From positions 1 through 64,000 of the forward strand of contig JABABQ010000034.1 in the NCBI GenBank assembly GCA_014238155.1: a stretch of 64,000 bases of DNA, read 5' to 3'. Each line of letters starts with the position of its first letter. Position 1 is the first letter of the stretch. Below the pieces are notes generated by a model that was not told the origin of the DNA, made no database searches, and saw only the letters and a program-made list of their open reading frames with translations. Of the stretch, positions 9,201 through 33,842 are shown piece by piece. This DNA comes from Rhizobiaceae bacterium. Its GTDB lineage: Bacteria > Pseudomonadota > Alphaproteobacteria > Rhizobiales > Rhizobiaceae. The position numbers and the translations under genes were made by a program.

Positions 9201-10061
9201 TTAGACTTCGGCAATTGTGGACTGAACTTTATCCCACTGAGATCGGGAGATCGCCCCCTTTCCGGCGATGACCCAATAAGTCTCATGATGATTCAATACA
9301 TCATCACCAAGCAGAACAAGCCGTTCCGCGTCCAGGTCGGCCTGGCAGAGCGGTAGTGATCCGAGCAGAACGCCCATACCGCACCGAGCGGCCGCCAATC
9401 CGGATACAAAAGTATCAAACCGCAAATGTGGCACGGGCGTTGTTGAAACGCCGAATTGTGCGGCCCAGGCCTGCCAGCCGGGGCGCGGGCCGGAACAAGC
9501 GATACGCGGCCAGTGTGTCCAATCACCTGCACTTTTGGCCAGATCTGGAGACGCCATTGGTGCGATCCGTTCGGCGTAAAGCGGCAGCTTGTAGACATGC
9601 GGCCAATCGCCAACTCCATAGCGAATTCTGATCACCTCATCCACTGGCACGTCTTGTGTACCCAGCACAATCGTTTGGACCGCCAATTGCCCACCGGAAA
9701 TTTGGCTAAGTTTTTTGAGGCGCGGAAGCAGCCAAAGATCGATTACGGATTGGCTAGCAGAGACGGTCAGGCGGTTCCGGTCAGCCCCGAATAAAGCCTC
9801 TGAACTATCCCGCACACTTTCCAGAGCAGATTGCACATGGGGCAGCCAGGTCTCGCCTTCGACCGTCAACGTGATTGATCGGGCGTTGCGAATAAACAGC
9901 GTTGTTCCAAGCAGCTTTTCCAACTGCCCAATTCGTTGACTGGTGGCAGACTGGGTGATGCCGATTTCTGCTGCCGCCAAGGTGAAGCTTCCACATCGCG
10001 CCGCCGCTTCAAAGGAGCGTATCCATTCCAGGGGGGGCAGTTTGAATTGACGGTTTGGCAT
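9201..10061 (-). CDS. LysR-family regulator (GcvA-like), divergent from the tmp operon
   Basis: This 286-residue protein has an N-terminal winged helix-turn-helix (residues 10-68: LEWIRSFEAAARCGSFTLAA, GITQSATSQRIGQLEKLLG, LFIRNARSITLT) and a periplasmic-binding-like effector domain. The LPPLEWIRSFEAAAR opening is the GcvA style. It lies 96 nt from, and divergent to, tmpA, so it very likely controls uptake or cleavage of trimethylaminoethylphosphonate or a product such as glycine betaine. The intergenic inverted repeat at 10077-10095 is a candidate site. The effector is not known. Confidence 0.87.
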   Translation of the reverse strand: MPNRQFKLPPLEWIRSFEAAARCGSFTLAAAEIGITQSATSQRIGQLEKLLGTTLFIRNARSITLTVEGETWLPHVQSALESVRDSSEALFGADRNRLTVSASQSVIDLWLLPRLKKLSQISGGQLAVQTIVLGTQDVPVDEVIRIRYGVGDWPHVYKLPLYAERIAPMASPDLAKSAGDWTHWPRIACSGPRPGWQAWAAQFGVSTTPVPHLRFDTFVSGLAAARCGMGVLLGSLPLCQADLDAERLVLLGDDVLNHHETYWVIAGKGAISRSQWDKVQSTIAEV

Positions 10062-10076
10062 TAGGAAACCAGATGC

Positions 10077-10095
10077 TTAGGGAGATAATTCCTAA
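10077..10095. promoter_or_regulatory. candidate LysR site in the LysR/tmpA intergenic region
   Basis: TTAGG and CCTAA arms separated by 9 nt (10077-10081, 10091-10095) give a dyad of the T-N11-A kind that LysR proteins recognise. It lies 15 nt from the LysR start and 62 nt from the tmpA start. Confidence 0.35.
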
Positions 10096-10100
10096 TTTGA

Positions 10101-11889
<1,789 letters not shown>

Positions 11890-11893
<4 letters not shown>

Positions 11894-12558
11894 CCGCACC
11901 TGAATACATATTCGAAGCCTCTACCAAACCGTCTCTGCCGTGGCACGAGGTTCCGCTAGTGCGTGCCGCCGAGACAAGTTTGACTGGCTACGGCTGTTTA
12001 GTGGACGATCCCGCAGACTTCAATATTGAGATCGTCCAATGGCCACGTCAGGGCTGGCGCCCCATCGATGATGGCACCGGCGATGAAGCGGGCTGGGTCG
12101 AAGGTGATTTTATCGGCGAATGGAAAGGCGATATACTTTTTGGCACCAACGCCGCTGTAAACGGCCACTACGTGCTGGGTTGGTCGACCGACCCAAAGTC
12201 TGCAAGCGAAACCGAGCAGACCGCGCCACGCGATCAAGTGCTGCTCTGGCACATGAATTATCATCCAGATGGTGGCCAGTTATTCTGGCCCAGGGAAAAA
12301 AAGCCGTTCATCGTGCCCGTCGCATTGCCAGGAGACAATCTAACACCCGATAAGGTGGTCGCTTTCTGGTGCGATGGATCAAAAGGCCTCTACATCCACC
12401 CCGGTATCTGGCACGAGGGAATATTTCCCGTCGAAGATAATCAGAGCTTTCTTGACCGTCAGGGGCGGGTTCATGCACGTGTCAGCGCCGATATCGGGCA
12501 GGAGTTCGGTGTCTATTTGTCGTGTCCACTACGCGTGGACAAAATCAAGGATTCCTAG
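11890..12558 (+). CDS. ureidoglycolate-lyase (AllA)-like cupin protein in the tmp operon
   Basis: A 222-residue soluble protein resembling the AllA/ureidoglycolate hydrolase cupin group. Visible features are LLWHMNYHPDGGQLFWP, a YIHPGIWHEGIFP histidine cluster, and DRQGRVHARVSADIG near the C-terminus, which looks like the family's closing strand. No other purine-catabolic gene is near. It overlaps tmpB (ATGA) and is followed directly by the next ATG (TAGATG), so its product should be needed in equal supply with TmpAB. The function here is unknown. It could act on a nitrogenous C2 by-product or sense or bind a ligand. Name it by fold, not by ureide degradation. Confidence 0.72.
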
Positions 12559-13389
12559 ATGAGCGGTAAAGTATGTCTGGTCGTTGTGGACGGTTTGAGA
12601 AACGACACGGCCCGAACTGACTGTGGTTATTTAATGTCGGCGGTGGAAGCCAAACAGGCGCAGGTCTGGACCATGTTAGCTTGCCTGCCGACAATTTCGG
12701 CTCCGCTTTATGAAACCATTCACACCGGAATGGCGCCTGCTGACCACGGACTGCTTTCCAACGAGTCCATTCGTCCATCGCCCCATCCGAACCTGTTTTC
12801 AGCGCTAAAAGCGGCCGGGAAAATAACCGGGGTTGTCGCCCATAGTTTCTTTCACACGCTTTATGGCGGTTCCAGCTTCGATGCGTTTGACCATGTTGAA
12901 ATCAACGATCCAAATGCGGCGATCCCCTATGCGCGCCATTATACGATGACGGGATACAATCAAGCCAACCCAACCATGCCGTCAGAATTTGATCTTTGCG
13001 CGCAGGCGTGGGCGATTGCGCGAGATCATGCGCCGGAATATTTGTTGCTCCACACATCAAGCTGCGACACTCTGGGACATTACTATACCGGCGAAGGTCG
13101 CGAATATCGCATTCAGGCGACCCATGTGGATAATGCACTGTCGCAGTTGATTCCACGTTTGCGGTCCACAGGGTATGATGTTCTGGTAACGGCAGATCAC
13201 GGGATGAATGCAGATGGACAACATGCTGGCGATGAGCAATGCCTGGGCGAAGTGCCATTCATTGCATTCAGCGAACGATTGAAAGTAGAGACCGATGTGA
13301 TACTGGACCAGCGCACGATCGCCCCTACGATCCTCGCCATGCTGGCTCTTCAGGCGCCAAAAACCATGAATATTCCAGCAATGCAGTAG
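12559..13389 (+). CDS. alkaline-phosphatase-superfamily hydrolase, last gene of the tmp operon
   Basis: This 276-residue protein is of nucleotide-pyrophosphatase/phosphonoacetate-hydrolase type. Two-metal ligands are seen in VVVDGLRND (Asp 10), SSCDTLGHYYTGEG (Asp, His), VTADHGMNADG (Asp-His) and a late His in DGQHAGDEQ. The nucleophile Thr is probably in PTISAPLYETIHTG. It is shorter than PhnA (about 415) and lacks an obvious cap insertion. No signal peptide, so it acts in the cytoplasm. Its ATG follows the upstream stop directly. A phosphodiester or phosphonate monoester linked to choline-like groups is a sensible substrate guess. It converges with the EamA gene with a 30-nt gap. Confidence 0.78.
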   Translation: MSGKVCLVVVDGLRNDTARTDCGYLMSAVEAKQAQVWTMLACLPTISAPLYETIHTGMAPADHGLLSNESIRPSPHPNLFSALKAAGKITGVVAHSFFHTLYGGSSFDAFDHVEINDPNAAIPYARHYTMTGYNQANPTMPSEFDLCAQAWAIARDHAPEYLLLHTSSCDTLGHYYTGEGREYRIQATHVDNALSQLIPRLRSTGYDVLVTADHGMNADGQHAGDEQCLGEVPFIAFSERLKVETDVILDQRTIAPTILAMLALQAPKTMNIPAMQ

Positions 13390-13419
13390 TGGTCAGAGGA
13401 ATGGTTTCCCGTGTTCCTA

Positions 13420-14265
13420 TCAGGCAGTTGCCAAAAGGATAACGCCACAGGCCACAATCAAGGCCGCAACCAAACGTGATTGCCATGGCCGTTCGCCAAA
13501 CCAAATGACACCTATCAGAGCTGCGATAATGACGCTGGATTCGCGAATGGCAGATACCGTGCCCAGTGTCGTTAAACTCTTGGCGTATATTGCCAGGCCG
13601 TAAGCGAGGCCCGAGATCATCCCGCCAAACAGTCCGATTGCATATCGCTTCAACGATACGCTTGGCAAAATATCTCGGCGATAAAACAACATCGCAAAAC
13701 CGGCAATGCTCTCAAGCAGAAACAGCCATCCGATATATCCCAGCGGACTGTTTGAGGCACGAACCCCCAATCCATCGACAACTGAATAGGATGCAATCGT
13801 TATCCCGGTTAAAATTGCAGCTGCAATAGCGCTTGCCGGAATTTTACCGTTCCTTCGGTTGAGCAATAGCGTCCCAATACCAAAGGAAACCAGTAATATT
13901 CCAGCCCACGCGACAGGTGGCAACACCTCCCCGGCGAAGAATTGCGCAGCAAGCGCAACGATGATCGGCGCCACTCCCCTGGCGATCGGATAGACTTGGC
14001 TCAGATCACCAAACCGATAAGACAATATCAAGAACCCATAATAGAAAAAATGGATCAGCGTTGAAGCTACAAGAAACGGCCATGCCTCCCTGGCAGGCGG
14101 CAAATAGACCATCACCATAACGGCAGAGGGCAAAAAATGGCCCAGATTGATTAAACCCATTGTCAAAATTCGGTCTGAAGAACCTTTGATTATCGCATTC
14201 CAGAACGCGTGCAAAACAGCAGCGGCGAGCACCAGCAAAATTGCAAAACTATTCGAAGATTCCAT
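13420..14265 (-). CDS. EamA-family (DMT) transporter at the end of the AEP operon
   Basis: A 281-residue inner-membrane protein with about ten hydrophobic segments in two EamA halves (ALLVLAAAVLHAFWNAIIKGS at the start; second half near residue 150). SYRFGDLSQVYPIARGVAPI is a family-typical loop. I start it at ATG 14265 because the first segment begins there. The longer frame to 14364 would add a basic tail overlapping the upstream gene. It follows the PbfA-like gene by 37 nt. Transport direction and substrate are unknown; export of an amine or aldehyde intermediate is one option. Confidence 0.78.
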   Translation of the reverse strand: MESSNSFAILLVLAAAVLHAFWNAIIKGSSDRILTMGLINLGHFLPSAVMVMVYLPPAREAWPFLVASTLIHFFYYGFLILSYRFGDLSQVYPIARGVAPIIVALAAQFFAGEVLPPVAWAGILLVSFGIGTLLLNRRNGKIPASAIAAAILTGITIASYSVVDGLGVRASNSPLGYIGWLFLLESIAGFAMLFYRRDILPSVSLKRYAIGLFGGMISGLAYGLAIYAKSLTTLGTVSAIRESSVIIAALIGVIWFGERPWQSRLVAALIVACGVILLATA

Positions 14266-14302
14266 CTGGAAATTCAGTTCCTGACGCAGTCGGGTATGTT
14301 GA

Positions 14303-15664
14303 TTAAGGTTGGACCGCCGATATGGCAGCTTCAACAATCGAAAGTGCGGTATCAAGGTCTTCACTGCTGATTGTCATTGGTGGAGACAAGGTCAGGACGC
14401 ATCCTTGAGAAATCTTGAAGCTCAAACCCGCATCGAGACACCGATAATATATTTGTTCGGCCAGCTCTGGCGCCGGAGTGCGAGCTTCCTTGTCAGACAC
14501 AATTTCGATGCCAAACATAAAGCCGCGCCCACGTACATCGCCAGCAATAGACGACGTCTTGGAAAACTCCTGCAACCGTGCAAGCGCGTCATTGCCCATT
14601 TTTGCGGTCCGCGCCACGAGATCTTCGTCCTCGATAATATCCAGAGTCGTCAGTGCGGCACGACCGGTAACCGGGTTTTTCTCATGGGTATAATGGCCAA
14701 TGGCAAAATCGGCACAGACATTCAGCCGCTCGCGGGCTACCACCGCCGCAATTGGCAACACACCACCGCCCAGTGCCTTGCCAATCACAACTATGTCCGG
14801 CTCAACATCATCATGCTCAAAGGAAAAGAACTTGCCGGTCTTCCCCAATCCGGTGGGTATTTCGTCAAATATCAACAGTGTGCCGTGTCTATTACAGGCT
14901 TCCCGTACCGCCTTCCAGTATCCTGCAGGCGGGACCTGAGGCACTGCCCGCATCGGTTCAGCCACAACGGCAGCCACATCGCCTTCTCGCTCCAGCACAT
15001 AGTCAACCATATTGGCGCAAGCCAAACCACATACATCCGGGCCGGCGTGACCATAAGGACACCGATAACAGGCAAATGGAGCTACATGTTCTGATCCCGG
15101 CAAAAGCGGCCCGGCAATATCGGAGCGAAATGTCGCTTCTCCGCCCACGGATGATGCGCCGAACCCTGCCCCATGAAACGCATCCCAAAACGAAAGCGTC
15201 TTAAACCGTCCGGTTGACGCTCGGGCGATCCTCAGCGCGACTTCAATTGCATCCGACCCACCAGTGGTAAAAAGCACGCGGTTGAGATCATCAGGTGCGA
15301 GCTTGCCAAGCCGTTCTGCCAACTGAACGGAGATGTCGTTGGTAAACCGACGTGGCGAGAAGCTCAATTGATCGAGCTGTTTCTTGATTGCGGCAATCAG
15401 CCTGGGATGACCATAGCCAATGTGATGAACACTATTGCCATGAAAATCCATATATCGTCGGCCATCGACATCTTCAATCCAGATGCCTTCGGCTTTGGCA
15501 ATCGTGGCGACACACGGGCTGGACAGGCTTTGATGCATGAAAGCGTCGGCATCGCGCTGCAACAGTGATCGCGATTTGCCTCGCTGATTCTTCTCTGCCC
15601 AATCCGACCGGGCTTGCGAAGTGTTCGATTCACCTTCCGTGTGTGGCCTGCCCGACCCGCTCAA
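14303..15664 (-). CDS. pbfA: class III PLP enzyme, PbfA-like (R)-1-hydroxy-2-aminoethylphosphonate ammonia-lyase
   Basis: A 453-residue class III aminotransferase-fold enzyme. PLP Lys is in VIGKALGGGVLP. PLP-binding TTGGSDAIEVALRIAR and LIFDEIPTGLGKTG are present. An FACYRCPYGHAGPDVCG loop with three cysteines and an HGNSVHHIGYGHP substrate-side motif match the branch found in AEP clusters. PbfA-type lyases convert (R)-1-hydroxy-AEP to phosphonoacetaldehyde and ammonia, which PhnY then oxidises. The frame opens with TTG at 15664 and has no clear ribosome binding site, but homology already begins at RSLLQRDADAFMHQ, so a start near 15664 is needed. It lies between phnY (63 nt) and the EamA gene (37 nt). 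A transaminase role is the alternative. Confidence 0.75.
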   Translation of the reverse strand: MSGSGRPHTEGESNTSQARSDWAEKNQRGKSRSLLQRDADAFMHQSLSSPCVATIAKAEGIWIEDVDGRRYMDFHGNSVHHIGYGHPRLIAAIKKQLDQLSFSPRRFTNDISVQLAERLGKLAPDDLNRVLFTTGGSDAIEVALRIARASTGRFKTLSFWDAFHGAGFGASSVGGEATFRSDIAGPLLPGSEHVAPFACYRCPYGHAGPDVCGLACANMVDYVLEREGDVAAVVAEPMRAVPQVPPAGYWKAVREACNRHGTLLIFDEIPTGLGKTGKFFSFEHDDVEPDIVVIGKALGGGVLPIAAVVARERLNVCADFAIGHYTHEKNPVTGRAALTTLDIIEDEDLVARTAKMGNDALARLQEFSKTSSIAGDVRGRGFMFGIEIVSDKEARTPAPELAEQIYYRCLDAGLSFKISQGCVLTLSPPMTISSEDLDTALSIVEAAISAVQP

Positions 15665-15727
15665 GAGACAAGCCCAACAGCGGGTTCAATGACGCAGTGT
15701 CTTGATTGCGGTGCCGGCATCATTTGA

Positions 15728-17179
15728 TCAACGCGGCCAGGGAAGAGAATATGTCTTCACATTGGTAAAAAATTTCATTGCCTCGGTCACACCTTCCTTA
15801 ACTGAATTACCGCTGTCTTTTATGCCGCCAAACGGAGAGGTTTCAATTCGATACCCCGGTTGTTCCCAGATATTGCAGGTACCAACATCGAGCCCATTGA
15901 TATAGGATATGGCGCGGTTGAGATCATTCGTGCAGACACCGGAGGACAGGCCGAAATCAGTGGAGTTGGAAATCGCCATGACTTCCTCATCATCGTCTGG
16001 AACCCGAACGATCGGAATTATGGGTCCAAAAGTTTCTTCCATCACAAGTTCGCTGTCATGGGGCACTTTGTCGACGACGATTGGCGGCAATAACGCCCCT
16101 TGTCGTGGCGGGTGATAGAGAATTTCCGCGCCGTCTTTTTCGGCCAGCAAAACCCTGTTTTCAAACAATTCGGCGGCTTGTGAATGAATGACACAACCGA
16201 GTTCTGTTTCAGGGTCCTGGGGGTCGCCAAACTTTATATCCTTGGCCTTTTTGAGAACCATGGGAACAAATTTGTCCGCGACGCTTTGCTGAACCAAAAT
16301 CCGCTTTATGGCGGTGCAACGCTGGCCAGAATTCCCGGTCGCGCCGGCAACGGCTATTGTTGCCGCTTTTTCAAGATCGGCATCATTGAGGTCATTACAG
16401 ATGATCAGCGGGTCGTTACCACCCAGTTCCAGAGCCTGCCGGGTGTAAGACGCCTTGGCGGCGATCAATTTGCCAACTGGCACTCCACCAGTGAAGGTAA
16501 TGATATCAATGTTTTCATTGACGATCATTTCCTCGCCAATGTCTTTTGGCAATCCGGTGACGACTTGAAACATTTCCGGTGGCAGTCCTGCCTCGTATAA
16601 AATGTCGGCCAACGCGATTGCCGTGAGAGGGGTCAATTCAGTTGGCTTGCAAACCATGCAGTTGTTGGTCGCAATTGATGGTGCGATTTTGTGGCTCACC
16701 ATATTCAGCGGGTGATTGAACGGAGTGATCGCTGAAATCGCTTTTACAGGCTCACGCTTGGTGAATATTTTGCGATCTTTACCGTTGTGGGTCAGATCAC
16801 AAGAGAAAATTTCACCGTCGTCGTTCAATGCCTGCTGGGAAGCAAATTGATAGACATCCTGGGCACGTTTGGTTTCATAGATTGCGTGTTGATGGCAAAT
16901 TCCAAGCTCAAGGGTCAGCCATTTCGCGAGGTAGTCGCGGCGGTCGCCGATCAATTCACCCGCGCGCTGCAGGATCTGGGAGCGCTCGTAACGAGACAGA
17001 TTGGACTTGTAAGCGGCAGCAAACTCAAATGCCTTGCGCGCGTGCTCGGCCTGACCAGCCGGAACCGTTCCTATAACTTCGTCGGTATAGGGATATTTCA
17101 CCTCTACGACCGCATCGGTAAATACGATCTCACCACCAATGCGCATGCCTTCGTTGCGAACTTCAATTTTCTCAGCCAT
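15728..17179 (-). CDS. phnY: phosphonoacetaldehyde dehydrogenase
   Basis: A 483-residue aldehyde dehydrogenase. The catalytic Cys is in [14 protein letters not shown] (near 290) and the general-base Glu in [11 protein letters not shown] (near 255). NAD binding is seen in [12 protein letters not shown] and [31 protein letters not shown] is typical of the PhnY branch. It oxidises phosphonoacetaldehyde to phosphonoacetate with NAD, the middle step of the PhnW-PhnY-PhnA route. AAGGAA lies about 9 nt before the ATG. It follows phnA by 18 nt, in one operon. Confidence 0.87.
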
Positions 17180-17197
17180 TTGGCAGGTTCCTTATAA

Positions 17198-18442
17198 TTA
17201 TTGTGCCGCAGCTTTGGTGGCAAAGAAAAACGCATCGAAATTACGCAGATCAGGTGCACTGTCCAGTTCCAACGTACGATTGACAATGAACGGCACGGTT
17301 TGCTCGTGCAATCCACCGTGTGAACGCAATGGTTCCTTCAACGCGGCAAGATCGTGGCGGTGCGCTGACGTGCCAATGGTAACTGTTTCACCCGAAGTTA
17401 AAACGATATCGCCAATTCGATCGGCTGGCAGGCCAAATCGGCCACACGCTTCTTCGCGTCCGCAAACAAATTCGATCCCATCGATTTTCGCAAGGCGATC
17501 GATAACGTCCTGTCGTTCAGTACTGTCTGGCAAATAAGCGGTAGCAAACGAGCCAAGCGCACCGTGGTGTACGACATAAGGATCGGTAATTGGCAATATG
17601 ACTCGTGCTGCCGCTTCACCCAGCCATTCATCCAGCAAGTCTTGAATATACACGACATTTGGTGAACCGTCGGAATGATGTTTTGGCTTCATACCGTGAT
17701 CGCCGGTAATGACGATTGCAGCACCCAATTCGTCCAATTGTCCAAGATAACGGTCAAAGTTTTCGTAAAATGCATTTGCAACAGGTTCACCCGGCGCGTG
17801 TTTGTGCTGAATGAAATCTGTGGTCGTCAAATACATCACATCTGGTTTCCATTCCTCCAGTAATTTGACACCTGCGGCGAATACAAACTCAGACAGCTCT
17901 GCCGAATAGACCTCGGGAACCGCCATGCCTGTCCACTTGCTGCCATTGTCAATTCCGTGTTCTGCAACTGTTGTAATGTCGGATCGCTCTGCGGAGAAAC
18001 AAATCGCCGTGTCATTGTCGAATTTAAGTTCGGCGCCCAACAAGGCGCGCAATTTATCTTTGGCAGTTACAATGGCGACGCGCGCACCGGCTTCCTGAAA
18101 CTTGTGAAAAATCGTCGGGGCACGCAAAAAGCGCACATCATTCATCATGACTTCGGCTTTGGTCTCTGGGTCGTAGAGATAATTGCCACAAATGCCGTGA
18201 ACAGCTGGTGGGCGCCCGGTAGCAATCGACAAATTGTTCGGGTTTGTGAAGGATGGAATGACCGAATGGGCCAATCTATCGGTCCCGCTGGCCTTGATCC
18301 GCTTTAAATTTGGCATCAAACCGGCAGCAATTGCTTTATCCAGATAGGCTGGTTCGCAACCGTCCAGGCATATGGCAATCGCACAGGTTTTAGGGGCCGC
18401 ATAGGTGCGGTCGTTGACCGTGACGGAAGATACGTCGTTCAT
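17198..18442 (-). CDS. phnA: phosphonoacetate hydrolase
   Basis: A 414-residue alkaline-phosphatase-superfamily enzyme, close to the usual 410-425 for PhnA. Metal ligands are in ICLDGCEPAYL (Asp), SFTNPNNLSIATG (Thr nucleophile), TTDFIQHKHAPGEP (Asp, His), ITGDHGMKPKH (Asp-His) and RSHGGLHEQ (His). It splits phosphonoacetate into acetate and phosphate. The start MNDVSSVTVNDRTY at 18442 has GGAG 8 nt upstream; the frame extends to 18550 without support. It lies 46 nt after phnW. Confidence 0.88.
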   Translation of the reverse strand: MNDVSSVTVNDRTYAAPKTCAIAICLDGCEPAYLDKAIAAGLMPNLKRIKASGTDRLAHSVIPSFTNPNNLSIATGRPPAVHGICGNYLYDPETKAEVMMNDVRFLRAPTIFHKFQEAGARVAIVTAKDKLRALLGAELKFDNDTAICFSAERSDITTVAEHGIDNGSKWTGMAVPEVYSAELSEFVFAAGVKLLEEWKPDVMYLTTTDFIQHKHAPGEPVANAFYENFDRYLGQLDELGAAIVITGDHGMKPKHHSDGSPNVVYIQDLLDEWLGEAAARVILPITDPYVVHHGALGSFATAYLPDSTERQDVIDRLAKIDGIEFVCGREEACGRFGLPADRIGDIVLTSGETVTIGTSAHRHDLAALKEPLRSHGGLHEQTVPFIVNRTLELDSAPDLRNFDAFFFATKAAAQ

Positions 18443-18488
18443 TAGTGAACTCCAATTGAAATAAGATAACCAACGGTGTGGCGTGAAA

Positions 18489-19691: not shown

Positions 19692-19759
19692 AATCGGTTC
19701 GTCCGCCGCGAGAAATGGTTGATTATTTCTCCAAATTTGCATCATTTTTATTATATGAA

Positions 19760-19770: not shown

Positions 19771-19804
19771 ATGTATTGATATATAACTTATGCCGATGAT
19801 CAAT

Positions 19805-23366: not shown

Positions 23367-23407
23367 TGATGACTCCTGTGAGGAAGGGTAAATTCTTCTT
23401 GCGTTAA

Positions 23408-23434
23408 TTTGCAATATTTTGCAATAATTTGCAA
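23408..23434. promoter_or_regulatory. three TTTGCAA iterons, candidate DeoR operator
   Basis: TTTGCAA occurs three times at an exact 10-bp period (23408, 23418, 23428) in the 101-nt gap between the DeoR gene and the divergent dehydrogenase gene. DeoR-family proteins often bind such phased repeats. Confidence 0.55.
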
Positions 23435-26164: not shown

Positions 26165-27187
26165 ATGATCAAGAACACTATCAAAACGCTGTCAATTGGC
26201 GTCGCTTTCAGCATTGCAGCTTTTGCGAATGCAAGCGCTGTCGATCTGACCGTTTATACGGCTGTAGAGGCCGAGGATCTGGCTCGCTATGCCTCCGAAT
26301 TCAACAAGGACCATCCTGATATCAAAATCAATTGGGTTCGGGATTCAACCGGTATTGTAACCGCCAAACTGCTGGCAGAAAAAGACAATCCACAAGCCGA
26401 TGTGGTTTGGGGATTGGCTGCAACATCACTTCTTTTGATGAAATCTGAAGGAATGCTGGAAGCCTATGCGCCCAAGGGTGTTGGCAATCTGGACCCGAAA
26501 TTCGTCGACAAAAGCTCGCCTCCAACCTGGACTGGGATGGATGCCTGGGTCGCTTCGGTTTGCTACAATACGGTTGAGGCTGGAAAAGCCGGACTAACGC
26601 CGCCAACAAGCTGGGCTGATTTGACCAAGCCCGAATATGCTGGCCATGTCATTATGCCAAATCCGAATTCTTCCGGAACCGGGTTTTTGGACGTTTCCAG
26701 TTGGTTGCAGATGTTTGGTGAAGAAGGTGGCTGGAAATATATGGATGGACTTCACGCCAATATCGCGCGCTACACCCATTCCGGTTCTAAACCTTGCAAA
26801 TTGGCCGCTGCTGGCGAAATTCCAATCGGTGTTTCATTTGCCTTCCGAGGCGCCAAGTCAAAAGCTGCTGGCGCGCCGTTGGAAATCATCGTTCCATCAG
26901 AAGGTGTTGGTTGGGATATGGAAGCTACGGCAATCATTGCCGGCACCGAGAAACTCGACGCAGCCAAAACTCTGGTTGATTGGTCGATTACCAAAAAGGC
27001 CAATGCGATGTACAATACTGGCTATGCCGTTGTTGCATATCCAGGAGTTGCCAAACCTGTTGAGCACTTCCCCACAAATCTGACAGAGAAGATGATCGAC
27101 AACGATTTTGAGTTCGCCGCCAACAACCGCGCAGCGATTTTGAAAGAATGGCAGGCCCGCTACGATTCCAAATCAGAACCAAAATAA
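26165..27187 (+). CDS. ABC transporter substrate-binding protein, 2-aminoethylphosphonate type (PhnS2-like)
   Basis: A 340-residue periplasmic binding protein with a signal peptide (first 25 residues, cleavage near NASA-VD). The mature start VDLTVYTAVEAEDLARYA and the segment WVRDSTGIVTAKLLAE match the iron/AEP-binding-like family of PhnS2. PNPNSSGTGFLDVSSWL and HSGSKPCKLAAAG are further family stretches. It delivers substrate to the two genes downstream. The ribosome binding site GGGAGAAG is strong, and a leaky terminator follows, as expected for an abundant binding protein. The AEP specificity is by family similarity; a methylated AEP is possible. Confidence 0.85.
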   Translation: MIKNTIKTLSIGVAFSIAAFANASAVDLTVYTAVEAEDLARYASEFNKDHPDIKINWVRDSTGIVTAKLLAEKDNPQADVVWGLAATSLLLMKSEGMLEAYAPKGVGNLDPKFVDKSSPPTWTGMDAWVASVCYNTVEAGKAGLTPPTSWADLTKPEYAGHVIMPNPNSSGTGFLDVSSWLQMFGEEGGWKYMDGLHANIARYTHSGSKPCKLAAAGEIPIGVSFAFRGAKSKAAGAPLEIIVPSEGVGWDMEATAIIAGTEKLDAAKTLVDWSITKKANAMYNTGYAVVAYPGVAKPVEHFPTNLTEKMIDNDFEFAANNRAAILKEWQARYDSKSEPK

Positions 27188-27308: not shown

Positions 27309-28469
27309 TTGTCAGCTGTAGAAACTAAAATGGCGACCAGTAACCCGCCTGCACCAGAGCAATCATTTCTGAAAATTGAAGAATTGTGGAAAGCTTTTGG
27401 TAATTTTATTGCGCTGAAAGACATCAGCCTGGAAATCAATAAGGGCGAGTTTGTTTGCTTTCTGGGGCCATCCGGCTGCGGAAAAACCACATTGCTGAGA
27501 GCCATTGCCGGACTAGATATTCAATCGCGCGGGTCCGTTTCTCAAGACGGCAACGATGTCTCCAACCTTCCGCCCTCAGAACGGGATTTCGGCATCGTAT
27601 TTCAATCCTATGCGCTGTTTCCAAATCTGACGATTGAAAAGAACATCGCGTTTGGCCTTGAAAATACTGGTGTTCCTAAGAAGGAAATCACTGCAAGAGT
27701 AGACGAGTTGCTGGCACTGGTTGGTTTGCCTGATCAGGGGAAGAAATATCCGGCTCAACTTTCTGGCGGCCAACAACAGCGTATTGCTCTGGCTCGGGCC
27801 ATCGCTTCAAAACCCGGCCTGCTGCTACTCGACGAACCCCTTTCCGCATTGGACGCGAAAGTAAGGGTATCGCTGCGACATGAAATCAAGGAACTGCAAA
27901 GAAAGCTTGGTGTCACCACGGTTATGGTTACCCATGATCAGGAAGAAGGTCTTTCAATGGGCGACCGGATTGTGGTGATGAATCACGGTGTCGTCGAACA
28001 AATTGGCACGCCAACCGAGATTTACCGCGATCCCAATAGTCTGTTCGTGGCGGATTTTATTGGCGAAATGAACCAGTTGGATGCGACAGCTCCATCAAAA
28101 AATACAGTCATGGTCGGGAATACCGAGTTTTCCTGTATCCCCCATTCTCTTTCGCCGGATAACCCGGTCATTGCCACAATCCGTCCAGAAGACATTGTTC
28201 CGCATAGAAGCGGCGCCCGCTCTCCTGGCGCAGTAGATACGGTCTCATCGCCGCAGAATACGATCGACGTCGACATTGTGGACATGGAATTTCTTGGATC
28301 TTACTGGAGGGCCGGGCTGAGTGGCGAGCCATTGGGCAATATGCGCCTGGTTGCCAACTTTTCCATCAACGCCATCAGACGCATGGAACTTGCCGTTGGC
28401 CAGCGACTGTCGATAGAGTTGTCTCCCAATCGTTTAAGGGTATTTCCTGCAAACGTTCAGGCCAACTAA
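27309..28469 (+). CDS. ABC transporter ATP-binding protein, 2-aminoethylphosphonate type (PhnT-like)
   Basis: A 386-residue ATPase. Walker A is GPSGCGKTTLL, Q-loop FQSYALFPN, signature LSGGQQQRIALARA, Walker B LLLLDEP and H-loop VTHDQEE. A C-terminal TOBE region covers residues about 250-380. TTG 27309 is the likely start: GGGAGG stands 5 nt before it, and the next ATG (27330) has no such site. The stop is 1 nt from the permease start, so the two are coupled. Confidence 0.87.
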   Translation: MSAVETKMATSNPPAPEQSFLKIEELWKAFGNFIALKDISLEINKGEFVCFLGPSGCGKTTLLRAIAGLDIQSRGSVSQDGNDVSNLPPSERDFGIVFQSYALFPNLTIEKNIAFGLENTGVPKKEITARVDELLALVGLPDQGKKYPAQLSGGQQQRIALARAIASKPGLLLLDEPLSALDAKVRVSLRHEIKELQRKLGVTTVMVTHDQEEGLSMGDRIVVMNHGVVEQIGTPTEIYRDPNSLFVADFIGEMNQLDATAPSKNTVMVGNTEFSCIPHSLSPDNPVIATIRPEDIVPHRSGARSPGAVDTVSSPQNTIDVDIVDMEFLGSYWRAGLSGEPLGNMRLVANFSINAIRRMELAVGQRLSIELSPNRLRVFPANVQAN

Positions 28470-28470
28470 T

Positions 28471-30486
28471 ATGAGTGTTGCTGCCCAAACGAAACTTCCA
28501 TCAGGCAAGGCAATCAAGCCGAAGCTCGGATCAGATGATTGGATCATGCGTGGTTTTATCGCGATGATTGCAATCTATCTGGTTGTTGCTCTCGCCCTCC
28601 CGCTTTATGCAATGCTGTCGAAGTCATTTGCAACGTACCAATTCGACTTGACTCAATTTGAATTTCAGGTCAGCGACGAAGCTGGTGTCTTCAGCGGTGA
28701 AGTGGTCTCTGCACAAGCATTGAACGACCAAACAAGTGCTTACGGCCCCGATGATCTCATTGCCGGATCAAATGGACGGTTGAAGGTCACCGCGTTCTTT
28801 CCAGAATTTTCGTTCCGCAGTCCGGTCCGCTACAAGATACGCGGTTTGAGCAACAGCGCTGTTTATCTGATTGGATCAGAACGACAAGTGGGTACAAATT
28901 GGGTCGAGACAGACTCAAACAAGTTTCGACGAATTGTCCTTCGGCCTTTGGCTTCCACCGGTTTCAGCAACTTTAAAACCTATTTTTCAACGCCTTCACT
29001 CGTCCGGTCTATTAACAACTCACTGTTGATCTCAACCATCAGCACAATCATTACTGTCACCCTTGCCTTTGGATTTGCATATGCATTGGCGAGAAGCTGC
29101 ATGCGCTTCAAAGGGGTTTTCAGGTTGCTGGCCATGGCGCCGATATTGGTACCCTCGCTGCTGCCCGGCATCGCCCTGGTCTATCTGTTTGGCAATCAGG
29201 GCATGCTGAAATCGGTGATGATGGGGGAATCGATATACGGGCCCTACGGCATTGTCGCAGGGTCGGTGTTCTTTACGTTTCCCCATGCAATGCTGATCAT
29301 CACCACCGCATTAGCCATTTCCGATGCCCGACTTTATGAAGCTGCCGTCACTTTGCGGGCGAGTGCGTGGAAGACTTTTTGGACCGTAACAATTCCGGGT
29401 GCCCGCTACGGATTGATATCAGCCGCTTTCGTGGTCTTCAATTTGGTTATCACCGACTTTGGACTTCCGAAGGTGATTGGCGGCCAGTACAATATGTTGG
29501 CGGTGGATATTTACAAGCAGGTGATCGGGCAACAGAATTTTGAAATGGGTGCGGTTGTGTCCGTGGTATTGTTGATCCCGGCAATGTTTGCATTTGCCAT
29601 CGACAGGATAATCCAGCGCAAACAGGTTGCATTGTTGTCTGCACGGTCCGTTGTCTATGAACCCAAGCCGAACAAACGTTTCGACTGGCTGTGCTTTGCC
29701 TATTGCTCGCTGATAGCAATCTTTATCGCTGGCATTTTGGGGGTCTGCCAATATGCCGCACTGATAAAATTCTGGCCTTATGATTTGAGTCTCAGCCTAA
29801 AAAATTATGCATTTGACCTGATGGATGGTGGCGGTTGGGCAGCTTACCGCAACTCCATCAAATTGGCGCTGCTGACCGCATTGTTTGGTACGATTGTTGT
29901 CTTCACCGGTGCCTATATGGTCGAAAAAACCCAGGGGTTCAAAACCGGTCGCACGTTGTTCCAATTCTTGGCGATGTTGCCAATGGCAATACCCGGCATG
30001 GTGTTGGGTCTGGCCTATATCTTTTTCTTCAACAATCCCGATAATCCGCTGCACTTTATCTACGGCACGATGGCCATATTGGTGCTGTGTACAGTTACCC
30101 ACTTTTATACAGTGTCACATCTGACCGCCGCCACTGCACTAAAACAGATGGATAATGAGTTTGAATCTGTATCAGCAAGCCTGAAGCAGCCATTCTATAA
30201 GCTGTTTGTCCGGGTTAGCGTTCCGGTTTGCCTACCGGCCATTTTGGACATTTCGATCTATCTTTTCGTCAATGCAATGACCACTGTATCTGCCGTTGTG
30301 TTTTTGTATTCTTCCGGTACTGCGCTGGCATCGGTGGCCGTATTGAACATGGATGACGCCGGAGATGTAGCTCCGGCTGCGGCAATGGGGATGATGATTT
30401 TCTACACCAACGTCATTGCCCGAACCATACATGCACTGGCTTCCAAAGGACTGATCCGGCATACACAGGCTTGGCGAACCCGATAG
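28471..30486 (+). CDS. fused ABC transporter permease, 2-aminoethylphosphonate type (PhnU2-like)
   Basis: A 671-residue inner-membrane protein made of two permease halves. Each carries an EAA loop (YEAAVTLRASAWKTFWTV near 290; EFESVSASLKQPFYKL near 570). Between the first two membrane segments there is an insertion of about 110 residues (roughly 52-170), hydrophilic and probably periplasmic. This makes it longer than I expect for PhnU2 (about 550). It ends 23 nt from the convergent second dehydrogenase gene. With the preceding two genes it forms a complete importer. Confidence 0.85.
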   Translation: MSVAAQTKLPSGKAIKPKLGSDDWIMRGFIAMIAIYLVVALALPLYAMLSKSFATYQFDLTQFEFQVSDEAGVFSGEVVSAQALNDQTSAYGPDDLIAGSNGRLKVTAFFPEFSFRSPVRYKIRGLSNSAVYLIGSERQVGTNWVETDSNKFRRIVLRPLASTGFSNFKTYFSTPSLVRSINNSLLISTISTIITVTLAFGFAYALARSCMRFKGVFRLLAMAPILVPSLLPGIALVYLFGNQGMLKSVMMGESIYGPYGIVAGSVFFTFPHAMLIITTALAISDARLYEAAVTLRASAWKTFWTVTIPGARYGLISAAFVVFNLVITDFGLPKVIGGQYNMLAVDIYKQVIGQQNFEMGAVVSVVLLIPAMFAFAIDRIIQRKQVALLSARSVVYEPKPNKRFDWLCFAYCSLIAIFIAGILGVCQYAALIKFWPYDLSLSLKNYAFDLMDGGGWAAYRNSIKLALLTALFGTIVVFTGAYMVEKTQGFKTGRTLFQFLAMLPMAIPGMVLGLAYIFFFNNPDNPLHFIYGTMAILVLCTVTHFYTVSHLTAATALKQMDNEFESVSASLKQPFYKLFVRVSVPVCLPAILDISIYLFVNAMTTVSAVVFLYSSGTALASVAVLNMDDAGDVAPAAAMGMMIFYTNVIARTIHALASKGLIRHTQAWRTR

Positions 30487-30509: not shown

Positions 30510-32957
30510 CTACGCCTTCATCCGCGACATCGACGGATCATACAATGGCTCAAGATGAACTTCGCAAGGAACTCGTTCGGTTTCGATTTCCAGTTCATAG
30601 GTGCCAGACCTGACATAGCCTGCATTTACCTCAGCCTCGCTGCGAACATAGCCGTAACCTATGGACCGTTGAACGGTGTAACCGAACCCACCGCTTGTCA
30701 GCCATCCAACCCGCTCGCCATTTCGATATATGGTCTCCCTCCCATGGATAACCCATTCTGGATCTACGGTAAAGCCTGCAAGCAACTTGCGAACTCCACG
30801 CTTTTTTTGATTTTCAAGTACGTCGCGGCCCCTGAAATTAACATCACTGCCTAACTTCACAGCCCAACCTAATCCGGCTTCCAGTGGAGAGTGATCCGGG
30901 CCGATATCGGAGCCCCAGGCGCGGTAGCCTTTTTCCAACCGCAAGGATTCGATGGCTCGATATCCGCCATTGATAATTCCGTGATCTTCCCCCGCCTGCT
31001 TAAGCGCTGCATAGACCGTCGTTGCATATTCAACCGGAAAATGCAGTTCCCAACCGAGTTCACCGACATAGGAAACCCGCATCGCACGTACCGGACAACC
31101 GGCGATGCCAATTTTGCGCTGCTGACCAAATGCAAATGCCGCATTGGAGACATCCACCGCCGTGACAGATTGCAGGACTTTTCGGGAATTCGGACCCATC
31201 AGGGAAAGCACTGCATTGCTCGATGTGATGTCGAACAGCTGGCAATTCATTGCCTCGGGAATGTTGCGGTCAATCCAGTTAAAGTCACGAGTTGCAAAAC
31301 CTGTTCCCGTAACAATGTAAAACTCTTGTTCGCCTAATCGGGTGATTGTCAGGTCAGATTCGATCCCACCCTTGTCGTTGAGCATTTGTGTATAGACCAG
31401 CGAACCCACAGGCTGATCCACGTTGTTTGCCGCAATCCAGTTCAGCGTCGCCAGCGCATCGGGGCCCTTCAAGATGAATTTTGCAAATGATGACTGATCA
31501 AATAGTGCAACGGCCTCACGGGCGGCCCTGTGTTCGCGACCAACCGCTTCAAACCAATTGGGTCGACTAAAACTATAGACATCTTCGGGCTGTTCACCCG
31601 CAGAACAATCAGCAAACCAATTGGACCGTTCCCAGCCGAGTTTTTCGCCAAAACAGGCACCCTGTGTCTTCAATATTTCATAAAGTGGTGATTTCCGACT
31701 CGGTCGCCCGGATGAATGTTCCTCGCCCGGCCAGGCCATCGTGTAATGTTTGCCATAGGCTTCCACGGTCCGGGTACGAACCCAGTCGGTGTCAAAATGT
31801 GGGCGCCCGAAACGCCTTATGTCGGCGGCCCATAGATCGAATGGCGGTTCGCCCTTATGGACCCATTCGGCCAGCGCCATGCCCGCACCACCACCAGCAG
31901 CGATGCCAAAGGCGTTAAAACCCGCGCCGACGTAAAAATTGTTCAGTTCCGGCGCCTCCCCGAGAATGAAATTCCCATCGGGAGTAAAACTTTCTGGTCC
32001 GTTGGTCAGCGCCTTGATGCCAGCAGTGTTCAATGCAGGTACCCGGCCCAACGACAATTCCATCAATGGCTCGAAATGGTCGAAATCTCCATCCAGCAGC
32101 GAATAGTGAAATCCTTCCGGAATCCCTTCAACCGCCCAGGGCTTGGGATTTGGTTCGTACCCCCCCATGACAAGACCGCCAACTTCCTCCTTATAATATG
32201 TAAGCCGATCAGGATCCCTCAATGTTGGTAGATTTGGTGTGACACCCTTGATCGGTTCAGTCAAAATATATTGGTGTTGCATGGAGACGAGTGGGACGTT
32301 GACTCCAAAACGTGCAGCAAAATCGCGACTCCATTGTCCAGCGCAGCAAACTACATTTTCACACTCAATTCGCCCCTGATTGGTTATGACAGCCCGGATG
32401 CGGCCCTTCTCGATTTCAAGATCAATGACCTTGGTGTCTTCAAAAATCTGAGCACCAGCCATGCGCGCGCCCTTTGCCAAAGCCATGGTGATATCGGAGG
32501 GATTGGCCTGACCATCGGTGGGCATGAAGGCGGCACCCACAACATCATCAACGTTCATCAGCGGCCAAATATCCAACGCTTCTTTGGGTGTCAGCAGTTC
32601 CATCTCAAGATTGAAACTATGGGCAGTGGTTGCCTGCCGCTTGACTTCCGTCCATCGCTCCTGATTGCAGGCAAGGCGCAAACCGCCGTTCATTTTCCAT
32701 CCTGTGGCCTGACCGGTCTCCTGCTCAATCGAGTTGTACAGATCGACAGAATATCCCAGCAACTGGGTGATATTGGCACTGGATCGCAATTGTCCCACCA
32801 AACCTGCAGCGTGAAAAGTGGTTCCCGAGGTTAGCTTTTTTCGCTCCAACAAAACGGTGTCGGTCCAACCGAGTTTGGCCAAATGATAGGCAGTTGAGCA
32901 GCCAACTATACCGCCGCCAACGATCACTGTCTTTGCTGTTGATGGTAGTTCGCCCAA
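30510..32957 (-). CDS. FAD-dependent dimethylglycine/sarcosine dehydrogenase-like protein with GcvT-type folate domain (copy 2)
   Basis: An 815-residue paralogue of the protein at 23468-25921 with the same layout: TVIVGGGIVGCSTAYHL, TTFHAAGLVGQLRS (covalent-FAD His; Phe replaces Trp), then the folate domain from about 430 (AVALFDQSSFAKF, YVGELGWELHFP, SLRLEKGYRAWGSDIGP). It should demethylate a different methylamine from copy 1. TTG 32957 has a GAGGA site that lies on the stop of the kinase gene, 9 nt upstream, so the two are translated together. Convergent with the importer operon. Confidence 0.83.
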   Translation of the reverse strand: MGELPSTAKTVIVGGGIVGCSTAYHLAKLGWTDTVLLERKKLTSGTTFHAAGLVGQLRSSANITQLLGYSVDLYNSIEQETGQATGWKMNGGLRLACNQERWTEVKRQATTAHSFNLEMELLTPKEALDIWPLMNVDDVVGAAFMPTDGQANPSDITMALAKGARMAGAQIFEDTKVIDLEIEKGRIRAVITNQGRIECENVVCCAGQWSRDFAARFGVNVPLVSMQHQYILTEPIKGVTPNLPTLRDPDRLTYYKEEVGGLVMGGYEPNPKPWAVEGIPEGFHYSLLDGDFDHFEPLMELSLGRVPALNTAGIKALTNGPESFTPDGNFILGEAPELNNFYVGAGFNAFGIAAGGGAGMALAEWVHKGEPPFDLWAADIRRFGRPHFDTDWVRTRTVEAYGKHYTMAWPGEEHSSGRPSRKSPLYEILKTQGACFGEKLGWERSNWFADCSAGEQPEDVYSFSRPNWFEAVGREHRAAREAVALFDQSSFAKFILKGPDALATLNWIAANNVDQPVGSLVYTQMLNDKGGIESDLTITRLGEQEFYIVTGTGFATRDFNWIDRNIPEAMNCQLFDITSSNAVLSLMGPNSRKVLQSVTAVDVSNAAFAFGQQRKIGIAGCPVRAMRVSYVGELGWELHFPVEYATTVYAALKQAGEDHGIINGGYRAIESLRLEKGYRAWGSDIGPDHSPLEAGLGWAVKLGSDVNFRGRDVLENQKKRGVRKLLAGFTVDPEWVIHGRETIYRNGERVGWLTSGGFGYTVQRSIGYGYVRSEAEVNAGYVRSGTYELEIETERVPCEVHLEPLYDPSMSRMKA

Positions 32958-32966
32958 TTCGTTTCC

Positions 32967-33842
32967 TCAGTGCTGAGATAAGTTTTTATGCGCGGCACGA
33001 AACCGCGCGAGATTTTCAGCAGTATAATCTGCAAAACCAAAATCCAGATCAGAAGTAACCTCAGACACCATGCTCCACATTGTTTCCCGCAGCAGAGAAG
33101 CGCACTTCATGATCTCAAAATGACGACGCAATTGATCGGTAACCGCGGTTTCAAAATAGGTTTCCAGTGCAACATTCTCCAACTTTTCGCCCAATTCATT
33201 GTTCGATGACAATCCGCCCAGATCGAATAACGGTGAATTGTAGCCGGCATAGTCAAAATCAATGAGCCACAGCCTTTTGTCGTCGTTAATAAAATTTGCA
33301 GCCAGCAAATCATTATGGCCCAGTACGATGTCGTAGGGAGCCGATGCTGTTTCATAGCTGTTTCCAAGTTCAACGAGTTCCTGGGCCAGTATCCGGTGGG
33401 AGCTGTCGTTTTGAATAAGAAACGCACCATAATCCCGGATCACGTGAAACACCCAGAACATCAACACAGGGCCGCGCAGGAATTTTGGCGTCACGGTATG
33501 AAATTGTTTCACCAGCTGAATTATTCGCCGCAACAGTTCTGGAGACCCAACATCCTGTGGGTTCAATGTTTGCCCCTCAACAAACTCCATAACCATTATT
33601 TCCGGTTCGTGATGAACGATGCCAGGTGACAAGCCAGCTTCGGAAGCTGCCTGTGCTACAGCCAGTTCATTAAACCTCAAAACGTGGTGCTGGACGATAT
33701 CCGCACCCACTCTGACGACATATTTTCCGGCGGAATCTTTAACCCGATAATTGGTATTCGTCATGCCGCCCTGGAGTGGTTCAACTTCCGCAGCGCCATT
33801 CCAGCATGGCAGATTTTCAATTCGTTGGATGTCGACGACCAT
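32967..33842 (-). CDS. choline/ethanolamine-kinase-like phosphotransferase (APH fold)
   Basis: A protein of 291 residues from ATG 33842 (a GTG at 33854 is possible). LQGGMTNTNYRVKD is the nucleotide loop, KYVVRVG holds the ATP-binding residue, VLGHNDLLAANFIND the catalytic Asp and LIDFDYAGYNSPLFDLG the metal Asp. This is the aminoglycoside-phosphotransferase/choline-kinase fold. The neighbour oxidises an N-methyl amine, so an amino-alcohol such as choline or N-methylethanolamine is the natural guess. The family is promiscuous and I do not name the substrate. Confidence 0.78.
   Translation of the reverse strand: MVVDIQRIENLPCWNGAAEVEPLQGGMTNTNYRVKDSAGKYVVRVGADIVQHHVLRFNELAVAQAASEAGLSPGIVHHEPEIMVMEFVEGQTLNPQDVGSPELLRRIIQLVKQFHTVTPKFLRGPVLMFWVFHVIRDYGAFLIQNDSSHRILAQELVELGNSYETASAPYDIVLGHNDLLAANFINDDKRLWLIDFDYAGYNSPLFDLGGLSSNNELGEKLENVALETYFETAVTDQLRRHFEIMKCASLLRETMWSMVSEVTSDLDFGFADYTAENLARFRAAHKNLSQH

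Follow-up and report, generated by a model that had tools for sequence, protein, structure and literature searches.

A dimethylglycine dehydrogenase-like flavin-folate enzyme recurs in 2-aminoethylphosphonate gene clusters and is a candidate demethylase of N-methylated aminophosphonates

N-methyl-2-aminoethylphosphonate (M1AEP), a common natural phosphonate, lies beyond the reach of PhnW, the pyruvate transaminase of 2-aminoethylphosphonate (AEP), and the answer known so far consists of three distantly related groups of FAD oxidoreductases, PbfB, PbfC and PbfD, which give M1AEP a methylamine-releasing fate (PMC10590968 and PMC10574752, in the parts available). These DAO-family flavoenzymes recur in phnWX and phnWYA clusters, with M1AEP as their expected substrate (same parts of PMC10590968). 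The survey behind them gathered homologues of three representatives and, in the available parts of PMC10590968, mitochondrial dimethylglycine dehydrogenase (DMGDH) serves as a comparison sequence only; the three-representative design may be why proteins of the DMGDH type went unreported. For HpnW, N,N-dimethylglycine was predicted as one possible ligand (available part of PMC11203657). Here we analysed a stretch of 64,000 nucleotides from a Rhizobiaceae bacterium (the window: positions 1-64000 of contig C1 in genome G000, which comprises 4.8 Mb in 77 contigs), in which an island for AEP catabolism carries two DMGDH-like genes, named DMG1 (the first, 23468-25921) and DMG2 (the second, 30510-32957). 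DMG1-type proteins proved to be recurrent flavin-folate enzymes of AEP clusters beyond this window, and no earlier description of them was found; an open-access literature search, which leaves most subscription papers outside, yielded no paper tying a DMGDH-type enzyme to phosphonate catabolism. With moderate confidence we propose that DMG1 demethylates M1AEP and/or N,N-dimethyl-AEP (M2AEP) to AEP and methylene-tetrahydrofolate (methylene-THF), as part of a locus for the breakdown of AEP and of its N-methyl derivatives.

Between 9201 and 33842 the genes are ordered as LysR (-), tmpA-tmpB-ugl-phosphodiesterase (+, overlapping or abutting), EamA-pbfA-phnY-phnA-phnW-nptA (-), LysR (+), DeoR (-), DMG1 (+), aepX-aepV-aepW (+) and DMG2-kinase (-). 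This resembles the PhnW-PhnY-PhnA pathway with PbfA of Sinorhizobium meliloti and Vibrio in its equivalog-level enzymes, its phnW-phnA-phnY order, its AEP-type LysR and its AepXVW-type importer. The S. meliloti AEP cluster carries a DMG1 orthologue too, whereas the PhnWYA pathway, in the available parts of the papers describing it, lacks DMG1; the window adds tmpAB, DMG1 and the DMG2-kinase pair. The second described counterpart is TmpA/TmpB of Leisingera caerulea, which the window proteins resemble over nearly their full length, with scores over the model cut-offs and overlapping genes. However, tmpAB of L. caerulea is a two-gene operon (PMC10574752, in part), whereas the window has four genes, which share an island with the AEP route. 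With PbfB, PbfC and PbfD, finally, DMG1 has the flavoenzyme family and the company of phn genes in common, but it is a two-domain protein of the DMGDH type with a folate domain, and the expected products are AEP and methylene-THF instead of phosphonoacetaldehyde (PAA) and methylamine.

The original prediction had called two DMGDH-like genes in this span, and both indeed carry the DAO, FAO_M, GCV_T and GCV_T_C domains and match rat DMGDH over nearly full length. DMG1 (23468..25921, +; probable start ATG 23468) aligns almost end to end with rat DMGDH (E 2.8e-154) and with dimethylglycine oxidase (DMGO) of A. globiformis (E 3.2e-107), and its AlphaFold model (pLDDT 87) superposes with a TM score of 0.94 on THF-bound rat DMGDH (4pab) and of 0.90 on DMGO, at structural-alignment identities of 35% and 30%, respectively. 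It thus shares the whole architecture of this family (rat 4pab, human 5l46, A. globiformis 1pj5) together with the FAD histidine, the His/Tyr dyad and the folate-site aspartate: His51, His230, Tyr256 and Asp535 align with DMGO His84, His225, Tyr259 and Asp552 and all are retained. In an alignment of 21 sequences, three of these four residues are invariant and the aspartate is present in at least 90%. We take DMGO His84 to be the covalent link to FAD. The dyad, and the internal chamber that passes the intermediate to THF, have been described (available part of PMC5082570), and entry 3gsi is, by its title, the DMGO D552A mutant. Comparing the residues of DMG1 with those of five betaine-type relatives brought up candidate positions, several of which are common to DMG2, so that no claim on specificity is made from them.

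DMG1 was also considered as a PbfD protein. This was ruled out, since DMG1 scores 60.8 bits (and DMG2 61.8 bits) against the PbfD/HpnW model TIGR03364, far under its cut-off of 285.1. No model named for PbfB or PbfC appeared among the best 25 of 32 families for DMG1 or the best 25 of 35 for DMG2. A PbfD/HpnW-type gene was found in none of 10 genomes with DMG1 by TIGR03364, a model that stayed silent everywhere, controls included.

To map the distribution of DMG1, a genome collection was scanned with DMG1 as query, which gave 80 loci picked by sequence with context ignored (L and G numbers are the labels of fetched loci and of genomes in this analysis). Together with stretches from further genomes these loci provided 127 proteins, all of at least 700 aa, for a FastTree phylogeny with local supports only, in which 56 rows are DMG1-type, 47 DMG2-type and 24 other. 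A branch supported at 78 sets the DMG1-type rows apart, with a 50-row core at 96, and the DMG2-type rows group at 100. As phn context we counted a relative of PhnW, PhnA, PhnY, PbfA or AepX at most 11 kb away, omitting the two window rows and two duplicates (L238, L225). Gene labels at loci rest on identity thresholds and not on a hidden Markov model per locus, tblastn matches spanning less than half of the query were dropped from the neighbourhood searches (less than 0.4 in the tmpA-locus survey below), and L055, with a stop in the matched stretch, was omitted from alignment A2 but retained in the tree and the context counts. Where both flanks reached at least 8 kb, phn context was seen at 27/32 DMG1-type loci compared to 0/30 DMG2-type and 1/7 other loci; over all rows the figures are 35/55, 3/44 and 1/24. 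Dereplication (flanks of at least 5 kb) left the contrast between DMG1 and the rest in place, with 14/19 v 3/41 at 90% identity, 7/10 v 3/31 at 80% and 5/7 v 2/23 at 70%.

The same picture was obtained at the level of whole genomes, for which we used a family sample of 151 genomes and a class sample of 385; related genomes are non-independent samples, and the Fisher p value given is uncorrected for relatedness. DMG1 orthologues, scored from the best 6 candidates in most genomes, occur in 10/151 family genomes at 69-100% identity, followed by a gap down to 52%. PhnW exceeded its cut-off in 10/10 of these, against 25/141 of the others (23 over the cut-off; Fisher 1.5e-7), one of the ten (G096) having DMG1 and PhnW on separate contigs. 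As AEP, the product of demethylation, needs PhnW, its presence in all 10 genomes counts in favour of a demethylase.

Several loci place DMG1 among or beside the AEP genes. In G131 (L185) it belongs to a same-strand run, phnW-phnA-phnY-DMG1-pbfA, whose genes overlap or are at most ~50 bp apart, and in Ruegeria (L010, L011) the genes for DeoR, DMG1, EamA and AepXVW all point the same way, EamA being separated from its neighbours by 1-2 kb. In S. meliloti (CP050512.1), whose DMG1 is 75% identical to that of the window, the order is xsc-pta-DeoR-DMG1 / LysR / NptA-PhnW-PhnA-PhnY-AepX-AepV-AepW (from the annotation; PhnY and AepW by tblastn). The closest relative seen is a Hyphomicrobiales metagenome-assembled genome (L012), with 89% identity in both DMG1 and DMG2; judged by its hits (Shinella, Sinorhizobium), the genome probably belongs to the Rhizobiaceae or to near relatives of that family. 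A different arrangement, HyuA-HyuB-TRAP-GS-like-FeADH-DMG1 (GS, glutamine synthetase; FeADH, iron alcohol dehydrogenase), was observed adjoining the phn cluster in L016-L018, L020-L025, L027, L029, L031, L032 and similar loci of the Reyranella type, with members missing in some.

The recurrence of the DMG1 clade in AEP clusters, combined with the retention of the catalytic and folate-site residues, makes folate-linked demethylation of N-methylated AEP the best reading. M1AEP and M2AEP would enter by AepXVW, DMG1 would oxidise an N-methyl group at its flavin, and the one-carbon unit would cross the internal chamber of the enzyme to tetrahydrofolate. The AEP released could then be converted by PhnW, PhnY and PhnA to acetate and phosphate, with PbfA, by homology, as the probable entry for hydroxy-AEP. 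TMAEP, the N,N,N-trimethyl form, would in turn be split by TmpAB into glycine betaine and phosphate, again by homology, and this betaine may be demethylated through a separate cluster on contig C26. DMG2 with its kinase could form a second, related demethylase, probably for methylated amines of the ethanolamine type, on weaker grounds than those for DMG1.

A number of observations weigh against this reading. We found no experimental precedent for demethylation of M1AEP, as opposed to its oxidative deamination to PAA, and residues telling a phosphonate from a carboxylate substrate were looked for in DMG1 with none identified. Five of the 32 full-flank DMG1 loci (L048, L051, L057, L183, L178) have no phn genes within 11 kb; for L178 a whole phn cluster lies just past its stretch (seen in L245), while L048, L051, L057 and L183 show none. 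The fraction over all rows is only 35/55, many of the remaining rows having a contig end on one side. In Reyranella-type loci the HyuAB-TRAP-GS-like-FeADH-DMG1 run ends with DMG1 and is followed by the phn cluster, so that DMG1 has genes other than phn as its immediate partners there; GS is present at 17/32 and FeADH at 14/32 DMG1 loci, and the FeADH of these runs is 60% identical to that of a DMG2 operon in Salipiger, which makes another or an additional amine substrate possible there. Genes for folate metabolism or electron-transfer flavoprotein (ETF) are not recurrent beside DMG1 (folD 0/32, ETF 0/32, purU 2/32). Moreover, 8/10 DMG1 genomes also have C-P lyase (PhnJ), an alternative route for such compounds.

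Among the other explanations, we considered that DMG1 and DMG2 simply complete the breakdown of the TmpAB product glycine betaine, as ordinary dimethylglycine and sarcosine dehydrogenases, the phosphonate neighbourhood being a mere consequence. The near full-length homology of both proteins to DMGDH speaks for it, as does the fact that glycine betaine is the TmpAB product (PMC10574752, in part), a product that fits the arrangement in G485, where tmpAB lies at most ~8 kb from sarcosine-dehydrogenase-like and MttB genes. Yet tmpA was not seen in the flanks of any of the 80 loci obtained with DMG1 as query, whereas phn genes accompany the full-flank DMG1 loci in the proportion given above; this neighbourhood of phn and not betaine genes speaks against a dimethylglycine dehydrogenase by substrate. 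The genome also holds, on contig C26, a separate DMGDH/SarDH-like pair (SarDH, sarcosine dehydrogenase) flanking a homocysteine methyltransferase, with an MttB gene near. The C26 DMGDH falls outside the DMG1 clade in the tree, so that the clade excludes the betaine-linked enzyme of its own genome and keeps phn company, and DMG1 need not serve betaine. A role of DMG1 and DMG2 in the betaine pathway was therefore set aside, and we consider it unlikely.

Quite improbable, in our judgement, is that DMG1 acts on a methylated amine other than a phosphonate (methylated ethanolamine, an N-methyl amino acid or N-methyltaurine) and clusters with phn genes through co-occurrence of headgroups or common transport or regulation. 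Such a substrate would fit the GS-like and FeADH genes that precede DMG1 in Reyranella-type loci, the FeADH of 60% identity that accompanies ETF, folD and purU in the DMG2 operon of Salipiger, and the S. meliloti locus, in which DMG1 has taurine genes (tauA, xsc, pta) as neighbours. On the other hand, DMG1 of G131 sits inside a phnWAY-pbfA run, Rhizobiaceae-type loci and Ruegeria show phn genes while GS-like and FeADH genes were not seen there, and xsc, pta and tauA, searched with the S. meliloti queries across the DMG1 loci, appeared in S. meliloti alone.

That DMG1 is an oxidative deaminase, converting M1AEP (or AEP) to PAA and methylamine for use by the gmaS-mgs operon 18-23 kb away in the window, as PbfC, PbfD and probably PbfB of the same DAO superfamily do in like clusters (PMC10590968, in part), is very improbable, since DMG1 retains the folate domain and the folate-site aspartate of DMGO, PhnW is kept in all 10 DMG1 genomes, the PbfD/HpnW model does not recognise DMG1, DMG1 loci do not conserve gmaS (their GS-like gene being only ~28-34% identical to it), and the available parts of PMC10590968 give the deaminases no folate domain, the main text being without 'tetrahydrofolate' or 'GcvT'.

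If demethylation by DMG1 is true, it would be a fourth answer to M1AEP with a different chemistry, in which no methylamine is formed, the methyl group is kept as methylene-THF and AEP goes back to PhnW, and as such DMG1 would tie phosphonate use to one-carbon metabolism; its gene adjoins the AEP cluster of the well-studied S. meliloti. A parallel is offered by 4-methylaminobutanoate oxidase (MABO), a formaldehyde-forming enzyme that we presume to belong to the two-domain DMGO family. MABO, encoded on pAO1, removes the methyl group of a non-glycine N-methylamine in a folate-linked reaction that leaves the free amine (PMC6214936, in part), although its substrate is a carboxylate and its likeness to DMG1 is by description only. 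On this nicotine plasmid MAO releases methylamine, and MABO makes γ-aminobutyrate and methylene-THF, from the same substrate (same part of PMC6214936). By analogy, DMG1 may be the demethylating alternative to the methylamine-forming PbfB, PbfC and PbfD, as MABO is to MAO.

As to the other genes of the island, TmpA, TmpB, PbfA, PhnY, PhnA, PhnW and PhnS2/T2/U2 had all been predicted from the open reading frames, and each exceeded a curated NCBIfam cut-off; we judge match strengths of this order not to be chance. The 2-oxoglutarate dioxygenase TmpA (10158..11303, +; likely start ATG 10158), which would hydroxylate TMAEP, scored 575 bits against NF049936 (cut-off 400) and aligned nearly full length with the solved TmpA 6npb (E 1.9e-153). 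TmpB (11300..11893, +), an HD-domain di-iron oxygenase for C-P cleavage to glycine betaine and phosphate, scored 351 bits against NF049941 (cut-off 300) and aligned likewise with the solved TmpB 6npa (E 9.5e-109). The four models of the AEP route exceeded their cut-offs within one cluster: PbfA (14303..15664, -; NF049939, 680 bits, cut-off 525), the phosphonoacetaldehyde dehydrogenase PhnY (15728..17179, -; TIGR03250, 731 bits, cut-off 636), the phosphonoacetate hydrolase PhnA (17198..18550, -; TIGR02335, 516 bits, cut-off 408) and the AEP-pyruvate transaminase PhnW (18489..19745, -; TIGR02326, 482 bits, cut-off 401; NF010006, 561 bits, cut-off 296). So did the three equivalog models of the importer, for which the genes are adjacent: the AepX/PhnS2-type AEP-binding protein (26165..27187, +; TIGR03261, 511 bits, cut-off 393), the AepV/PhnT2-type ATPase (27309..28469, +; TIGR03265, 511 bits, cut-off 458) and the AepW/PhnU2-type permease (28471..30486, +; TIGR03262, 795 bits, cut-off 593). 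Two further transporters flank the route, an EamA-family protein nearest to the phosphonate-associated type (13420..14364, -; PF00892; TIGR03340, 142 bits, under the cut-off of 288) and an NptA-like Na/Pi transporter with PhoU domain (19805..21460, -; PF02690, PF01895; NF037997, 109 bits, cut-off 50). Elsewhere in this genome PhnX stayed under its cut-off and a search for PhnJ (C-P lyase) found nothing, which leaves phnWYA and tmpAB as the C-P-cleaving routes found.

Two genes of less obvious function complete the tmpAB operon. The third encodes a protein of the ureidoglycolate-lyase fold (11890..12558, +; PF04115 partial, 45 bits), for which the AlphaFold model (pLDDT 90.8) retrieved 2bdr in Foldseek (E 1.1e-9), and the fourth a type I phosphodiesterase of the alkaline-phosphatase superfamily (12559..13389, +; PF01663, 65 bits). 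Clear relatives of the former (42-76%) occur in 22 other class genomes, with weak ones in four more, and TmpA is over its cut-off in 13/22 of the genomes with a clear relative compared to 14/362 of the others. None of 14 stretches fetched around such relatives shows tmpA, so the association is by genome and not by place; in G311 (L284) the gene lies 7 bp past phnW, within a small phn cluster that also holds a TmpB/PhnZ-like gene. The phosphodiesterase-like gene is found behind tmpB in L206 and the Labrenzia plasmid L249 as well. It is a guess that these two proteins may have a TMAEP ester or adduct as their substrate.

TmpA exceeded its cut-off in 14/151 family and 28/385 class genomes, the own genome included in both, and it goes together with PhnW (10/14 v 25/137, p 7e-5), while its association with DMG1 is weak (3/10 v 11/141, p 0.05). 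From 40 other genomes over the cut-off, 31 tmpA loci were fetched. A gene like the first LysR of the window is adjacent in 15/31, phn genes are near in 3/31 (G492, G315, G413) and a DMGDH-like gene in 2/31 (G492, G485), so that tmpAB and DMGDH-like homologues do occur together, while their joining is rare. The original prediction had joined all these gene sets into one locus that passes methyl groups to folate. In that respect tmpAB, the AEP route and the importer do form one island and the inclusion of DMG1 is plausible, but that of DMG2 is weak and the transfer of methyl groups to folate unproved; that the locus handles AEP in all N-methylation states is something we infer only.

Four regulators had been announced for this span, of which three were recognised in a scan that left frames of 60-150 aa outside; the last gene, 32967-33854, turned out to be choline/ethanolamine-kinase-like and no regulator, and a GntR regulator (5677-6384) lies outside the span. 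The first LysR (9201..10061, -), divergent from tmpA, is GcvA-like (175 bits, under the cut-off of 288) and the probable TMAEP regulator, whereas the second (21672..22550, +) is of the AEP-catabolism type (TIGR03339, 335.8 bits, just under the cut-off of 341.1). The DeoR-family regulator adjoining DMG1 (22596..23414, -; PF00455, PF08220) probably starts downstream of the listed TTG, and a DeoR gene (35-47%) is near DMG1 at loci that do not belong to the Reyranella group, e.g. in L009-L011, L045, L177-L184 and L248. TTTGCAA occurs as three phased direct repeats (23408..23434) between the DeoR and DMG1 genes, a possible operator; they are the sole exact matches to the pattern in the window, and with at most 3 mismatches there are 10 matches against 4.45 expected. 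Comparable direct repeats of ~10 nt were spotted by eye, and without a statistic, upstream of DMG1 in several relatives. Promoter and terminator scans performed no better than shuffles.

DMG2 (30510..32957, -; DAO, FAO_M, GCV_T, GCV_T_C; E 2.6e-164 with DMGDH 4p9s) lies 9 bp from the upstream gene for the choline/ethanolamine-kinase-like protein (32967..33854, -; PF01633, 91.9 bits, cut-off 29). A relative of this kinase is present in 29 of the 33 DMG2-type loci whose flanks both extend 5 kb or more, and the same loci show a choline/betaine-type ABC transporter in 12 and ETF in 7 cases, on account of which the pair more likely constitutes a predicted demethylase module for methylated ethanolamine-type amines, argued less firmly than the role of DMG1. 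A paper on a dimethylsulfoniopropionate transporter, sought as a parallel to the DMG2-kinase pair, contains none of 'dimethylglycine', 'choline kinase', 'phosphotransferase' or 'DeoR'.

On a plasmid of Salipiger abyssi (L288; kinase to glyA at 8112-20448) we observed a run of DeoR, ABC transporter, kinase, DMG2, ETF, folD, purU, N-formylglutamate amidohydrolase, GS-family, aldehyde dehydrogenase, FeADH and glyA genes, which could encode a complete folate-linked route for demethylating an amine taken up from outside, quaternary or methylated and probably of the ethanolamine type. With the Salipiger proteins as queries, folD and purU were found in 0/33 other DMG2-type loci, so the full run is one case. 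In a Pelagibacteraceae locus (L085 9096-16336) the kinase-DMG2 pair is followed by genes that read as ETF beta, ETF alpha and ETF-QO.

Phosphonate genes do accompany DMG2 in places. The closest parallel to the window is G492, where APH, DMG2, tmpA and tmpB follow one another in this order on a single strand, spaced by 0-26 bp or slightly overlapping, and are followed by LysR, phnW, phnA, phnY, aepX, aepV and aepW, and in G065 a DMG2-kinase pair lies ~4 kb from AepXVW; both genomes are without a DMG1 orthologue, the best match being 50-51%. In the tree the DMG2 proteins of G065 and of the window and L012 group together (94) with that of G492 close by, from which it follows that one DMG2 branch was drawn to phosphonate loci repeatedly, or stayed there. 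We doubtfully entertain the idea that DMG1 and DMG2 represent one flavin-folate lineage specialised for methylated two-carbon headgroup amines, with DMG1 acting on N-methylated AEP and DMG2 on kinase-phosphorylated N-methylated ethanolamines, which are phosphate isosteres of those phosphonates, the island thereby recycling the methyls of phosphono- and phospholipid headgroups into folate. Such isosterism would explain why three lineages (the window, G492 and G065) have recruited kinase-DMG2 to the side of tmpAB or AEP genes.

Upstream of the island, the predicted methylglutamate-synthase-like operon and glutamine-synthetase-family gene are present by their Pfam domains. The former comprises mgsABC-like N-methylglutamate synthase genes (651-2024, 2058-2906, 2894-3835, all -; PF01645, PF01493, PF13522), for which we assume the mgs names from the domain order, and the latter is gmaS-like (3907..5382, -; PF00120; NCBIfam type III GS, 297 bits, under the cut-off of 470). 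As a part of the DMG1 system gmaS-mgs was set aside, the GS-like gene at DMG1 loci being a different one, and only L059, L061 and L076 have gmaS, at 86-87% identity, in the vicinity of a DMG2 relative. The fhs gene (formate-THF ligase) that had been noted next to it is there with its N-terminus, but merely as a 40-codon fragment ending at the contig edge (1..131, -). A whole-genome profile search placed PF01268 positions 1-40 at C1:1-120 minus (32.9 bits, cut-off 27), while the 42-aa fragment scanned alone against Pfam and PDB gave no match. Matches to the N-terminal part of this profile occur at the ends of two contigs (C1, C7) and to the C-terminal part in two others (C19, C33), which suggests two near-identical copies that broke the assembly. 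G+C is uniform across the window (0.48-0.54 in 2-kb steps), and downstream of the island the minus strand carries, at 34805-51121, a single repetitive ORF of 5438 aa with, by eye, the look of a cadherin/RTX-type surface or secreted protein.

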